DNA of 64,000 nucleotides, from the NCBI RefSeq assembly GCF_000384215.1, contig NZ_KB913032.1, positions 2,373,665 through 2,437,664 on the forward strand. Direction: 5' to 3'. Shown in pieces: positions 20,013 to 23,987 of the stretch (the first letter of the stretch is position 1; each line of letters opens with the position of its first letter). A program made the translations under genes and the position numbers. The notes beneath the pieces were generated by a model, which was not told the DNA's origin, did not search any database, and worked only from the letters and a program-made list of their open reading frames with translations. The DNA is from Amycolatopsis alba DSM 44262. GTDB taxonomy: Bacteria; Actinomycetota; Actinomycetes; Mycobacteriales; Pseudonocardiaceae.

Positions 20013-21935
<1,923 letters not shown>

Positions 21936-22089
21936 GCGAAGGCTCCAAAGGTTTCAAGTTCGGGTGTGGTGCCCGCGCCGGGCCCCGGTCGCTCTACTCA
22001 CGCGATCGGGTAACGTCGGCCGACTTTGGCCATACGCGGACCTCACCAGCCTACCTGTAGCCGAACTGTGAGCACCCCCACGCCCCAAG

Positions 22090-22108
22090 ATCGGTTAGCC
22101 TCACCTAA
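22090..22108 (+). promoter_or_regulatory. IdeR/DmdR-type iron box
   Basis: GGTTAGCCTCACCTAA at 22093-22108 matches the last 16 positions of the actinobacterial iron-box consensus (TTAGGTTAGCCTAACCTAA) at 15 of 16 bases. It lies 41 nt upstream of the GTG of the 52-residue gene, in the right place to overlap its promoter. Iron-loaded IdeR/DmdR would repress there. The first three bases of the consensus do not match well. Confidence 0.75.
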
Positions 22109-22111
22109 CGT

Positions 22112-22134
22112 GGACTGCGTCGCCGACGCAGTCC
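22112..22134 (+). promoter_or_regulatory. Perfect leader hairpin before the 52-residue gene
   Basis: GGACTGCGTCG and CGACGCAGTCC form a perfect 11-bp stem around a single C, ending 4 nt before the GAGGAG ribosome binding site. It directly follows the iron box. It could be a second operator or an mRNA structure in the leader. Confidence 0.65.
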
Positions 22135-22148
22135 GACGAGGAGCACGA

Positions 22149-22307
22149 GTGGGCAAGAAACTACCCGACGACCCGCACAAGCTCGTGCGCAAATGGATGA
22201 AGTCGGGCAAGGTCAAGAAGAAATGCTGCCGCTCGAAGTCACGATGCGGCAAATGCCCCGTTCTCGCCCTGAAAAAGGCGAAAACGAAGATCGCGAAAGC
22301 GGCTTGA
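22149..22307 (+). CDS. Small Lys/Cys-rich protein behind an iron box
   Basis: A 52-residue, strongly basic protein: an N-terminal helix-like part KKLPDDPHKLVRKWMKSGK, then KKKCCRSKSRCGKCPVLALK and a Lys/Ala tail. Four cysteines in the pattern CC-x5-C-x2-C could bind iron, zinc or a cluster. GTG 22149 has GAGGAG 5 nt upstream; the frame upstream is open but overlaps the iron box and has no start signal. I do not recognise a named family. The iron box just upstream suggests it is made when iron is scarce. It ends 21 nt before the convergent YciI-like gene. Confidence 0.75.
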   Translation: MGKKLPDDPHKLVRKWMKSGKVKKKCCRSKSRCGKCPVLALKKAKTKIAKAA

Positions 22308-22328
22308 CCGCATCGTCGGCACTGATCG

Positions 22329-22628
22329 TCAGTGCACCACCGCCTCGTTGATCAACCGCAGTTCCGGCGCGGTTCTGGTCGGCGAGAACTCGATCACCTC
22401 ATAGGCGGCCATATGCTTGATCGAAAAGGGGTCGGTCGCGAGGATCGCGTCCAGCTTTCCCCTGGCCATGGGCCTGGTGATGATGACACCACCGATGCGC
22501 GGATTGCGCCTGCCGGAGGCGAGGAAAATGCCGTGCTCGTACTGCTTGGTCAGCCAGTCGGCGTGATCCGGGAGCACGTAGTCGATTTCTTCGATAGGGG
22601 CCGTATAGGTCAGCATCACGACATACAT
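22329..22628 (-). CDS. YciI-like protein
   Basis: A 99-residue protein of the YciI/YCII superfamily, a dimeric ferredoxin-like fold. The conserved His is in LPDHADWL (about residue 22) and the conserved Asp in ILATDPFS (about residue 65), the proposed catalytic pair. GRRNPRIGGVIITRP is also typical. Some relatives are dehydrochlorinases or muconolactone-type enzymes; the substrate here is unknown. ATG 22628 is the only plausible start. Confidence 0.85.
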   Translation of the reverse strand: MYVVMLTYTAPIEEIDYVLPDHADWLTKQYEHGIFLASGRRNPRIGGVIITRPMARGKLDAILATDPFSIKHMAAYEVIEFSPTRTAPELRLINEAVVH

Positions 22629-22813
22629 GAGATGAAGGTAGACCCGGATCTCCTATATGACGGGTGTACTGGATCAGCCGATACGAAGTATTGACGCGAC
22701 GTGCCCGGAATGAGTGACTCAGCCCTATTTTTTCACTTTGTACGAGATTCTCTGTTCGTACTCGTTCGAACGTGTCCGCCGGACCACTTGCCGGGCCGCG
22801 TACCATCGTCGTC
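22629..22813. other. Region upstream of the trpS leader
   Basis: This stretch between the divergent YciI-like gene and the trpS leader peptide is comparatively AT-rich near 22725-22765 and should contain both promoters. I could not choose reliable hexamers. Nothing else is seen. Confidence 0.4.
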
Positions 22814-22873
22814 ATGCGCACGCAGCACGCTTCGTGGTGGCCGCCCTCCGGCGGCCCCGAAGTCCTGCGCTGA
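22814..22873 (+). CDS. trpS leader peptide with tandem Trp codons
   Basis: A 19-residue leader, MRTQHASWWPPSGGPEVLR, with two adjacent TGG codons at 22835-22840. The leader ends 91 nt before trpS. The downstream hairpins are arranged so that a ribosome stalled at these codons would cover the first stem arm. The frame itself is short, but the Trp pair plus the terminator makes a sensing role very likely. Confidence 0.8.
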   Translation: MRTQHASWWPPSGGPEVLR

Positions 22874-22917
22874 ACCAGACGAGCGCACCACAGGCCGCCC
22901 CACCGGGCGGCCTTTTT
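22839..22917 (+). promoter_or_regulatory. Tryptophan transcription attenuator
   Basis: There are four alternating arms: A GGCCGCC (22839-22845), B GGCGGCC (22850-22856), A' GGCCGCCC (22893-22900) and B' GGGCGGCC (22905-22912) with T5 after it. A pairs with B, and A' with B', to give the terminator; B can instead pair with A' when A is covered by a ribosome stalled at the Trp codons, which frees B' and lets transcription into trpS. This is the standard attenuation logic, visible directly in the sequence. Confidence 0.8.
22893..22917 (+). terminator. Attenuator terminator before trpS
   Basis: GGCCGCCC-CACC-GGGCGGCC is a perfect 8-bp stem followed by TTTTT, a textbook rho-independent terminator placed 48 nt upstream of the trpS start. 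Confidence 0.88.
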
Positions 22918-22964
22918 CGTGCCCGGACTCCTGGGGCGGCCCGAATCCGGAAGGAAGAAGGCAG

Positions 22965-23930
22965 ATGATCAGGTTGTCCGGGATCACCCCGTCCGGCCAC
23001 GTCCACATCGGGAACCACCTGGGAGCCATCCGGCGCTGGGCGGACGAAGGCGGGCCGGACGACCTGTACTTCGTCTCCGACCTGCACGCCATGACGAACT
23101 CGCACAATCCGGCGAAGCTGCGCTCGATGGCGTCGGAACAGCTGGCCGTGCTGATCGCGGCCGGGATCGAGCCGGACCGCGTGTTCGTGCAATCCGACAT
23201 AGCCCGCGAGCTGGGCGCCCTCAACTGGGTCCTCGAGTGCACCTGCAACTACGGCGAGGCCGCCAGGATGATCCAGTTCAAGGAGAAGTCGAAGGGCCGC
23301 GCCGGGGTCCGGCTGTCCCTGCTGACCTATCCCGTGCTGATGGCGGCGGACATCCTGCTCCAGGGCGCGGACGAGGTCCCGGTCGGCGAGGACCAGCGGC
23401 AGCACGTCGAACTGGCGAGAACCCTGGCGAAGCGGTTCAACTCCACCTACGGCGACGTGTTCACCATGCCGAAGGCGGTCCTGCCGCCCGCCGGGGCGCG
23501 CGTGATGGACCTCGCCGAGCCGACCCGCAAGATGTCGAAGTCGACGCGGGAGGAGGCCGGGGTCGTCTTCGTCCTCGACGAGGCCGACCAGGTCAGGCGG
23601 AAGGTCAAACGCGCGAAGACCGACGGCGGGTCGAAGCCCGCGTACGCGCCGGAGGCCCGGCCAGGGATGGCGAACCTGCTGGACATCCTCTCGGCGTGTA
23701 CGAAGGAGAAGCCCGAAGTACTCGCCGACCGGTTCGACTCCTACGGCCAGGTCAAAGAGGCTGTCGCCGAGGCGCTCATCGAGGAGCTGCGGCCGGTCCG
23801 GGAGCGTGCCCTGGCGCTGCTCGCCGACCCCGGCGAGCTGGAGCGGGTGCGCAAGGCGGGTGCCGTCCGGGCGGCGGAGCGCGGTGACCACCGGCTCCAG
23901 TCCGCCCTACGTCTCATCGGTGCCGGTTGA
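22965..23930 (+). CDS. trpS: Tryptophanyl-tRNA synthetase
   Basis: A class I synthetase of 321 residues that charges tRNA-Trp. The nucleotide-binding HIGN is at 14-17 and KMSKS at 189-193, both intact; SDLHAMTN and GEDQRQHVELAR are specific to TrpRS. ATG 22965 follows GGAAGGAAGAAGG. The upstream leader peptide and terminator indicate expression controlled by charged tRNA-Trp. A long hairpin begins 2 nt after the stop codon. Confidence 0.95.
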   Translation: MIRLSGITPSGHVHIGNHLGAIRRWADEGGPDDLYFVSDLHAMTNSHNPAKLRSMASEQLAVLIAAGIEPDRVFVQSDIARELGALNWVLECTCNYGEAARMIQFKEKSKGRAGVRLSLLTYPVLMAADILLQGADEVPVGEDQRQHVELARTLAKRFNSTYGDVFTMPKAVLPPAGARVMDLAEPTRKMSKSTREEAGVVFVLDEADQVRRKVKRAKTDGGSKPAYAPEARPGMANLLDILSACTKEKPEVLADRFDSYGQVKEAVAEALIEELRPVRERALALLADPGELERVRKAGAVRAAERGDHRLQSALRLIGAG

Positions 23931-23932
23931 AG

Positions 23933-23987
23933 GTCCGTGAAGGCCTCCTTCCCTACCCTCAAAGTAGGGAAGGAGGCCTTCACGGAC
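23933..23987. repeat. Perfect palindrome of the GTGAAGGCC family, between convergent genes
   Basis: The 24-bp arms at 23933-23956 and 23964-23987 are perfectly complementary with a 7-nt loop. The left arm begins GTCCGTGAAGGCCTCCTTCC. It follows the trpS stop by 2 nt and overlaps the last codons and stop of the Nudix gene, so it could terminate both. Confidence 0.75.

Follow-up and report, generated by a model that had tools for sequence, protein, structure and literature searches.

A small four-cysteine protein behind a conserved IdeR-type iron box in Actinomycetota, a tentative Bfd-like partner of ferritin

Among the closest described counterparts of the gene discussed here is Bfd, a [2Fe-2S] protein that is needed for mobilising iron from the bacterioferritin Bfr (PMC7760384; PMC12363616). 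In Mycobacterium tuberculosis, bfd lies divergent from bfrA, is regulated by IdeR and is up in low iron (PMC5218490). The expression of bfd differs from that of bfr, though the two genes are often adjacent (PMC7762939). A 19-bp IdeR consensus has been published, and the IdeR of Saccharopolyspora erythraea binds such sites as well as half sites (PMC8464063; PMC10317159). Genes repressed by IdeR usually carry one box, and activated genes several (PMC10317159). Here we describe a small gene behind the same box in a 64,000-nucleotide stretch of the 9.81-Mb genome of Amycolatopsis alba DSM 44262 (G000:C1:2373665-2437664; hereafter the window). What we computed is a gene and its family, a box conserved with it, an IdeR-type regulator in the same genome, ferritin genes beside part of the family, opposite charges on the two proteins, and a scarcity of short Bfd frames among the sampled genomes that carry the box. 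Our leading reading, advanced tentatively and at somewhat less than even confidence, is that the product is an IdeR-repressed, probably Fe-S-binding cationic partner of ferritin, Bfd-like in working and unrelated to Bfd in sequence.

The likeness to the IdeR/DmdR/DtxR regulons of Actinobacteria lies in the box itself. The copy in the window, ATCGGTTAGCCTCACCTAA, agrees with the consensus TTAGGTTAGSCTNACCTAA at 17 of 19 positions and matches on both strands; it is the sole site in the window at three mismatches or fewer, against a chance expectation of 0.00 (mean of 100 shuffles). An earlier note on this DNA had reported a 16-bp stretch agreeing at 15 positions, which counting by eye bears out (GGTTAGCCTCACCTAA against GGTTAGSCTAACCTAA), just upstream of a 52-residue basic protein with CC-x5-C-x2-C. 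The open reading frame (ORF; GTG start at 22149, stop at 22307), the Cys spacing and a net charge of +17 were all found as described, and past its start residue the protein reads GKKLPDDPHKLVRKWMKSGKVKKKCCRSKSRCGKCPVLALKKAKTKIAKAA. At two mismatches or fewer the motif occurs at eight places in the genome, the small gene included, and the reversed-pattern control at none. The other boxes adjoin genes for a siderophore-interacting protein (SIP, L199; such labels are our own handles), a chorismate-binding enzyme together with an SDR gene (L200), an ABC ATPase with a binding-protein-like lipoprotein (L204; the lipoprotein recognised by eye), a Peripla_BP_2 protein (L205), a DUF2470 protein (L198), an SDR gene (L202) and a gene without a Pfam match (L203). 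An IdeR-type regulator is also encoded (L190, with Fe_dep_repress, PF01325; Fe_dep_repr_C, PF02742; and FeoA, PF04023).

That the small gene is under IdeR control we regard as very nearly certain, and that the protein is made in low iron as highly probable; the direction of control, repression, is what we infer. A simple scan found no sigma-70 type promoter at the leader of the small gene, so the placing of the box over the promoter is read from the position of the box. In the passages of the regulon literature that we consulted, we saw no description of this gene family as an IdeR, DmdR or DtxR regulon member. As a separate observation, the DUF2470-domain gene is preceded by the L198 box (G000:C1:3915879-3915897; 1 mismatch, among the best in the genome), and the Ftn-type ferritin gene lies about 3.5 kb away; a heme or iron role for the DUF2470-domain gene is possible.

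The earlier note had proposed a search for box and protein together in other actinobacteria. At each of 238 loci we scored a region of about 220 bp that ends at the CC codons, and for comparison 4,760 random windows from the same loci. These controls were drawn before identical loci were removed, which left 228 distinct ones. Our script had first picked a wrong upstream start at L029 and L032-L034, and the windows were therefore set by the CC codons. The cut-offs used in this work (14/19, 1.7 kb and 210 aa) were chosen after the data had been seen. Excluded from the count are the window's own copy (17/19), L069, repeat fetches (L006-L010, L040, L043, L044, L046, L049, L050, L052-L055, L070, L266, L268 and L270), and loci where the script found no CC-x5-C-x2-C (L048, E 1.2e-11; L059-L068, E 0.0018-0.032).

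A box of at least 14/19 is present at 130 of the 188 non-mycobacterial loci, at 0 of the 50 mycobacterial loci and in 6 of the 4,760 control windows. Among distinct loci the counts are 128/182 and 0/46, which answers the proposed search in favour of conservation. The earlier note had named a lack of box conservation in relatives as grounds for giving up its idea, and this check did not refute it. Within the Pseudonocardiaceae, 27 of 28 sampled genera have such a box at one locus at least (65/73 distinct loci), and it is frequent in Kribbella (19/19), Knoellia (4/4), f2 g3 (5/6), f77 (6/6) and f118 (4/4). Its presence is mixed in f93 (3/16) and f8 (4/11). The test gave no score of 14 in the mycobacteria, f2 g5, f2 g6, f2 g284 (13 and 11), f1 g234, f87, f9, f7 g386, f35 (13), f43 g106 or two of three f22 loci, nor in Conexibacter (0/3), Paraconexibacter (13), two Solirubrobacterales MAGs (metagenome-assembled genomes; 13 each), Patulibacter, Speluncibacter, Microbacterium, L073 or L082. 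The same holds for single loci of otherwise box-bearing genera (L015, L030, L039, L155, L164 and L187). Since the boxed loci span many families and gene contexts, a chance origin is implausible, with the reservation that related loci are not independent. Furthermore, the box is kept at 44 of 81 loci that have no typA, ferritin, ferritin-like or fur match nearby, so it appears to go with the small gene. The mycobacterial loci that we read (e.g. L007, L044) share a stretch, CGGTCGGCCAATCACGAAAACGAGAGA, located between typA and the start of the boxless gene, which may be used by another regulator or by the typA promoter.

The small protein belongs to an unnamed Actinomycetota family. The window protein and the homologs searched have no curated Pfam or NCBIfam match and no sequence relative in the PDB, in agreement with the earlier note, which knew of no named family. 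Searches returned 117 close proteins, 734 by profile and 2,696 by a profile of distant members; most of the records are named 'hypothetical protein', and no name shown reports a tested function. Some public records call the tiny protein an adenine-specific DNA glycosylase or a 2Fe-2S/4Fe-4S cluster protein, names that probably stem from a resemblance to the MutY Fe-S loop. The Pseudonocardiaceae profile matches 211 of 297 sampled genomes of that family, and with wider profiles there are matches in 120 of 298 genomes at the level of the order and in 70 of 394 at that of the class. For the phylum, with E relaxed to 0.05, 31 of 396 genomes match, the motif being present in 17 of the 28 phylum loci put through our script. 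In a collection of named genomes, the best 80 of 143 loci all carry names of genera that we take to be Actinomycetota.

We compared 208 predicted members, a set picked by its Cys pattern that includes some near-identical sequences and has script-chosen starts and approximate N termini. They range in length from 31 to 100 residues (median 55) and in net charge from +11 to +29 (median +17). Exactly four Cys are found in 179, 0-1 His in 165, and a Pro after the last Cys in all 208. The Cys columns are invariant in alignments A2 and A7 (the latter of 30 sequences) and nearly so in A1 (60 of the 117 close proteins), with C33 at 90% or above. Two further alignments were made, A5 of 56 sequences, and A6 of 35 of the best 80 of 143 loci plus L006 and L009. 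The window protein is predicted to form a helix, the Cys loop and a second helix, with the hairpin absent; a minimal type has about 31-38 aa, and a distant type has a predicted C-terminal helix-hairpin-helix. In three members from genus g203 the second and third Cys are one residue further apart. In one genome (G1200) two copies of the family gene lie on different contigs (E 9.5e-9 and 1.1e-8).

The spacing C-x6-C-x2-C-P and a basic loop liken the motif to the [4Fe-4S] loop of MutY and endonuclease III (EndoIII; EndIII_4Fe-2S, PF10576). Side by side, the loops read CTARSPRCADCPIYDDC in the genome's own MutY, CHARKPACGACPLARMC in its Nth (both gene names presumed by us) and CCRSKPRCKKCPV in the small family, and Nth shares the spacing. 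The family differs in its extra adjacent Cys, and the protein is too small for a glycosylase domain; it lacks the pattern C-x6-C-x2-C-x5-C, and no PF10576 match was found for the window protein or its homologs. Around the Cys stretch there is also a weak profile similarity to the FeoC-like regulators (PF09012; E 0.035, 14.7 bits), with weak matches in 8 of the 60 A1 members (best E 0.017). We rejected membership in that family: the window protein's 14.7 bits lie below the 21-bit cut-off, and PF09012 is not listed for 10 other proteins scanned. Judged by these profile and motif tests, the small protein is not a member of the Bfd, EndoIII-loop or FeoC families. For the four-Cys site itself, the loop likeness tips us slightly towards an Fe-S cluster over zinc.

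We searched by tblastn within 1.7 kb of the 238 loci: 128 are near typA, 22 near an Ftn-type ferritin gene, 2 near a ferritin-like gene together with Fur, and the remaining 86 near no such gene. For the 228 distinct loci the counts, in this order, are 123, 22, 2 and 81. An Ftn-type ferritin gene therefore lies within 1.7 kb of the small gene at 22 of the 105 distinct loci not beside typA, the window locus not being among them. The label 'Ftn-type' is our presumption from the ferritin sequences. Two ferritin-superfamily genes in the 9.8 Mb of the window's genome give, as a rough yardstick, a chance of about 0.1% per random 3.4-kb window. The 22 loci come from f7 (1), f8 (7), f35 (1), f43 (2), f77 (6), f116 (2), f117 (1) and two named genomes, Solirubrobacteraceae L071 (which may belong to f43) and Patulibacter L099. 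Sixteen are arranged head-to-head with the ferritin gene; the ferritin gene is downstream on the same strand at four (L246, L248, L254, L257), upstream on the same strand at one (L284) and downstream and convergent at one (L056). Because these arrangements differ, a single inherited accident is argued against. The charges are opposite: the median of the 208 members is +17, and the five ferritins that we checked have -15 to -16. At two distant loci (L009/L042, of family f22, and L082, named Thermoleophilia) a Fur-family regulator and a ferritin-like gene are both found no more than about 1.4 kb from the small gene.

In the window's genome the Ftn-type ferritin gene (L296) has tandem upstream boxes of 16, 15 and 14/19; the second ferritin-superfamily match (L297) looks Dps-like by eye. 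The ftn gene of Corynebacterium glutamicum is activated by DtxR (PMC1382209). By the rule of one box for repression and several for activation, the small gene would rise as ferritin falls, like Bfd.

Bfd (Fer2_BFD, PF04324) and the small protein are alike in being small Cys proteins under an IdeR-type box. The Bfd gene is often next to that of its storage protein; the small gene has a ferritin neighbour at the 22 loci given above, but not in the window. They differ in that the small protein has no PF04324 match (profile searches of the window protein and homologs), in spacing (CxC...CxxC in Bfd frames, CC-x5-C-x2-C here), in the neighbour, which where there is one is an Ftn-type ferritin and not Bfr, and in the strongly cationic character of the small protein. 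The window's genome has three Fer2_BFD matches, all inside long oxidoreductase-like frames. For 59 chosen genomes we defined a short-frame Bfd as a Fer2_BFD match in a frame of at most 210 aa, taking box presence from the box test and from locus reading. Among the matches listed (to E near 2e-5, so that weaker short Bfd frames may be missed), one is found in 2 of 39 genomes with a box of at least 14 (G298 and G816) and in 1 of 4 with a weaker or no box (G594; not G956, G235 or G288). The mycobacteria have one in 12 of 12 genomes with a boxless family gene and in 4 of 4 without a family match.

Ten short-frame Bfd loci were fetched, and 6 of these have a box within 90 bp and an adjacent Bfr-like ORF (recognised by pattern and eye, not by Pfam), which is the layout proposed for the small protein. 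Seven of the fetched loci are mycobacterial. At four of them (L328, L329, L332, L333) a Bfr-like ORF is divergent and a box lies no more than 90 bp from the domain match; at L330 and L331 the box is about 700 bp away, next to the Bfr, and L334 has neither. A box within 90 bp is also present at L335, L336 and L337. In our count 8 of the 10 fetched loci have an IdeR-type box upstream, the seven with a box within 90 bp and L330. G298 and G594 hold box, Bfd and Bfr, and G816 holds Bfd with an 18/19 box and no Bfr candidate. Three other mycobacterial short-frame loci (L310, L313, L326) have no box of 14 and no Bfr candidate, so mycobacterial genomes hold more than one Bfd-like gene, not all of them boxed. 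The contrast, with Bfd present in mycobacteria and their family copy boxless, is consistent with replacement, and is essentially one of a single mycobacterial clade against the rest.

We propose that the small gene forms an IdeR regulon unit by itself. As long as iron is plentiful, Fe(II)-IdeR would sit on the box over the promoter and keep the gene off; with iron low the gene would be released. The four conserved Cys, like the first three ligands of the MutY/EndoIII loop, would probably hold an Fe-S cluster or, alternatively, zinc. In our leading reading the cationic protein would then dock electrostatically on an acidic heme-free (Ftn/BfrB-type) ferritin and assist reductive iron release, as Bfd does for heme bacterioferritin. 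A stronger version, that this is the missing iron-release partner of Ftn in Actinobacteria, a minimal stand-alone Fe-S loop protein that replaces Bfd in lineages without heme bacterioferritin (checked for the window's genome only) and is switched on, as IdeR repression is lost, when ferritin loses its IdeR activation, we consider doubtful.

Several observations weigh against a ferritin partner. Most loci, the window's included, are not beside a ferritin gene: typA is the neighbour at more than half of the distinct loci, and 81 are beside no gene searched for. Five of the 22 ferritin-adjacent loci have box scores of 10-12 (L247, L250, L253, L254, L099) and one scores 13 (L056). Both ferritin adjacency and Bfd presence cluster by clade. 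A single evolutionary event may lie behind the mycobacterial contrast, and in G298 and G816 the box and a short-frame Bfd occur together. As for the cluster, the position of the fourth EndoIII/MutY ligand is K or R in 179 of the 208 members and never Cys, and the spacing differs from that of every Fe-S motif known to us. A route of iron release from Ftn by pupylation and ARC has been described in C. glutamicum (PMC8223512). Finally, strong positive charge fits nucleic-acid binding equally well.

This last point leads to the best of the alternatives, in our view still unlikely, an iron-sparing RNA- or DNA-binding factor. Released from IdeR repression, it would lower the synthesis of dispensable iron proteins through mRNA or small RNA, its Cys reporting iron status. 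Size and charge (52 aa, +17) fit, and by description only it may be likened to FbpA, FbpB and FbpC of Bacillus subtilis, small basic proteins under the main iron repressor for which such an iron-sparing role has been proposed, and of which FbpB is a 48-aa protein suggested to be an RNA chaperone (PMC7430163); regulation there is by Fur, and here by IdeR. The EndoIII cluster, moreover, sets basic loop residues against the DNA backbone (PMC12363616), and typA adjacency in the Mycobacteriales could hint at translation. However, such a factor leaves the recurrent ferritin adjacency in several families unexplained, and the one match from an Rfam scan of 21900-23100 is weak and lies elsewhere than in the leader.

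The protein might instead act away from ferritin, as a chaperone of iron or Fe-S or as a zinc-binding protein, and take up, protect or pass on scarce metal during iron starvation. The four conserved Cys, the IdeR box and the two loci near Fur-family and ferritin-like genes (L082, L042) suit this idea, and no prokaryotic iron chaperone for ferritin had been reported as of 2016, according to one paper (PMC4771812). It does not predict adjacency to ferritin in particular, however, and the number of Cys and His residues given above makes a storage role unlikely; we think it rather improbable. Our estimate is a little lower again for a metal- or redox-sensing DNA-binding regulator of the neighbouring ferritin or of other iron genes. 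Distant members, for which the prediction gives a Cys loop followed by a helix, a beta hairpin and another helix, look like half a winged helix, but no fold match was significant, the window protein has two predicted helices round the Cys loop and no hairpin, and members of 31-38 aa fit little beyond the Cys loop and one helix. A ribosome- or TypA-linked factor, its iron box incidental or serving typA, agrees with the 123 typA-adjacent loci, boxless mycobacteria included, but is very improbable given that 61 of the 105 distinct loci lacking a typA neighbour have the box too, and that the distance from the box is 40 bp to the start of the small gene against about 155 bp to that of typA.

The features of the locus are collected in Table 1.

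Table 1. Features of the small-gene locus, in window coordinates
Feature	Position	Strand	Basis
IdeR/DmdR-type iron box ATCGGTTAGCCTCACCTAA, single copy, 40 bp before start codon	22090..22108	+	17/19 to IdeR consensus; conserved upstream of family genes
Leader palindrome (arms 22112-22122 and 22124-22134); not conserved, probably outside the system	22112..22134	+	Arm comparison
Ribosome binding site GAGGAG	22138..22143	+	Sequence
Gene for 52-aa cationic CC-x5-C-x2-C-P protein	22149..22307	+	ORF, homologs, net charge +17
Codons of four conserved Cys (residues 26, 27, 33, 36)	22224..22256	+	Codon positions
Gene taken by us to be the typA/bipA GTPase gene; divergent neighbour in Mycobacteriales, context only	20013..21935	-	ORF and neighbour search
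YCII-domain gene, convergent neighbour, context only	22329..22628	-	PF03795 E 2.7e-9

Between box and ribosome binding site the earlier note had also seen an 11-bp palindrome and made a leader hairpin part of the system. The palindrome is there and its 11-bp arms are perfect, a stem matched by 1 of 5,000 mononucleotide shuffles of the 40-bp leader; the hairpin, on the other hand, is not conserved, with leader stems of merely 3-6 bp in the 16 same-genus relatives examined. As perfect stems of at least 10 bp also occur in 10 of the 1,599 40-bp tiles of the window, it is probably fortuitous or species-specific.

Further along, at 22814-22918 (+), a 19-aa leader peptide with tandem Trp (MRTQHASWWPPSGGPEVLR) is followed by a G+C-rich hairpin and a T run before a TrpRS-like gene (22966 on). 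This is likely a tryptophan attenuator. There is a weak match at 22820-22917 (E 0.15) to the Rfam model RcsR1, which we take to be a trpL-type leader RNA. After the TrpRS-like gene lies an inverted repeat (23933-23987) with perfect 24-bp arms (23933-23956 and 23964-23987) and a 7-base loop.

How iron leaves the heme-free bacterial ferritins is poorly understood, and the solubilisation of the mineral from pupylated C. glutamicum Ftn is stated to be unclear (PMC8223512). A conserved four-Cys protein with an IdeR box and, in several families, a ferritin neighbour is a concrete candidate for expression and assay. Should the ferritin role fail, an unnamed and widely conserved gene would still be added to the likely iron regulon of actinobacteria, antibiotic producers included.
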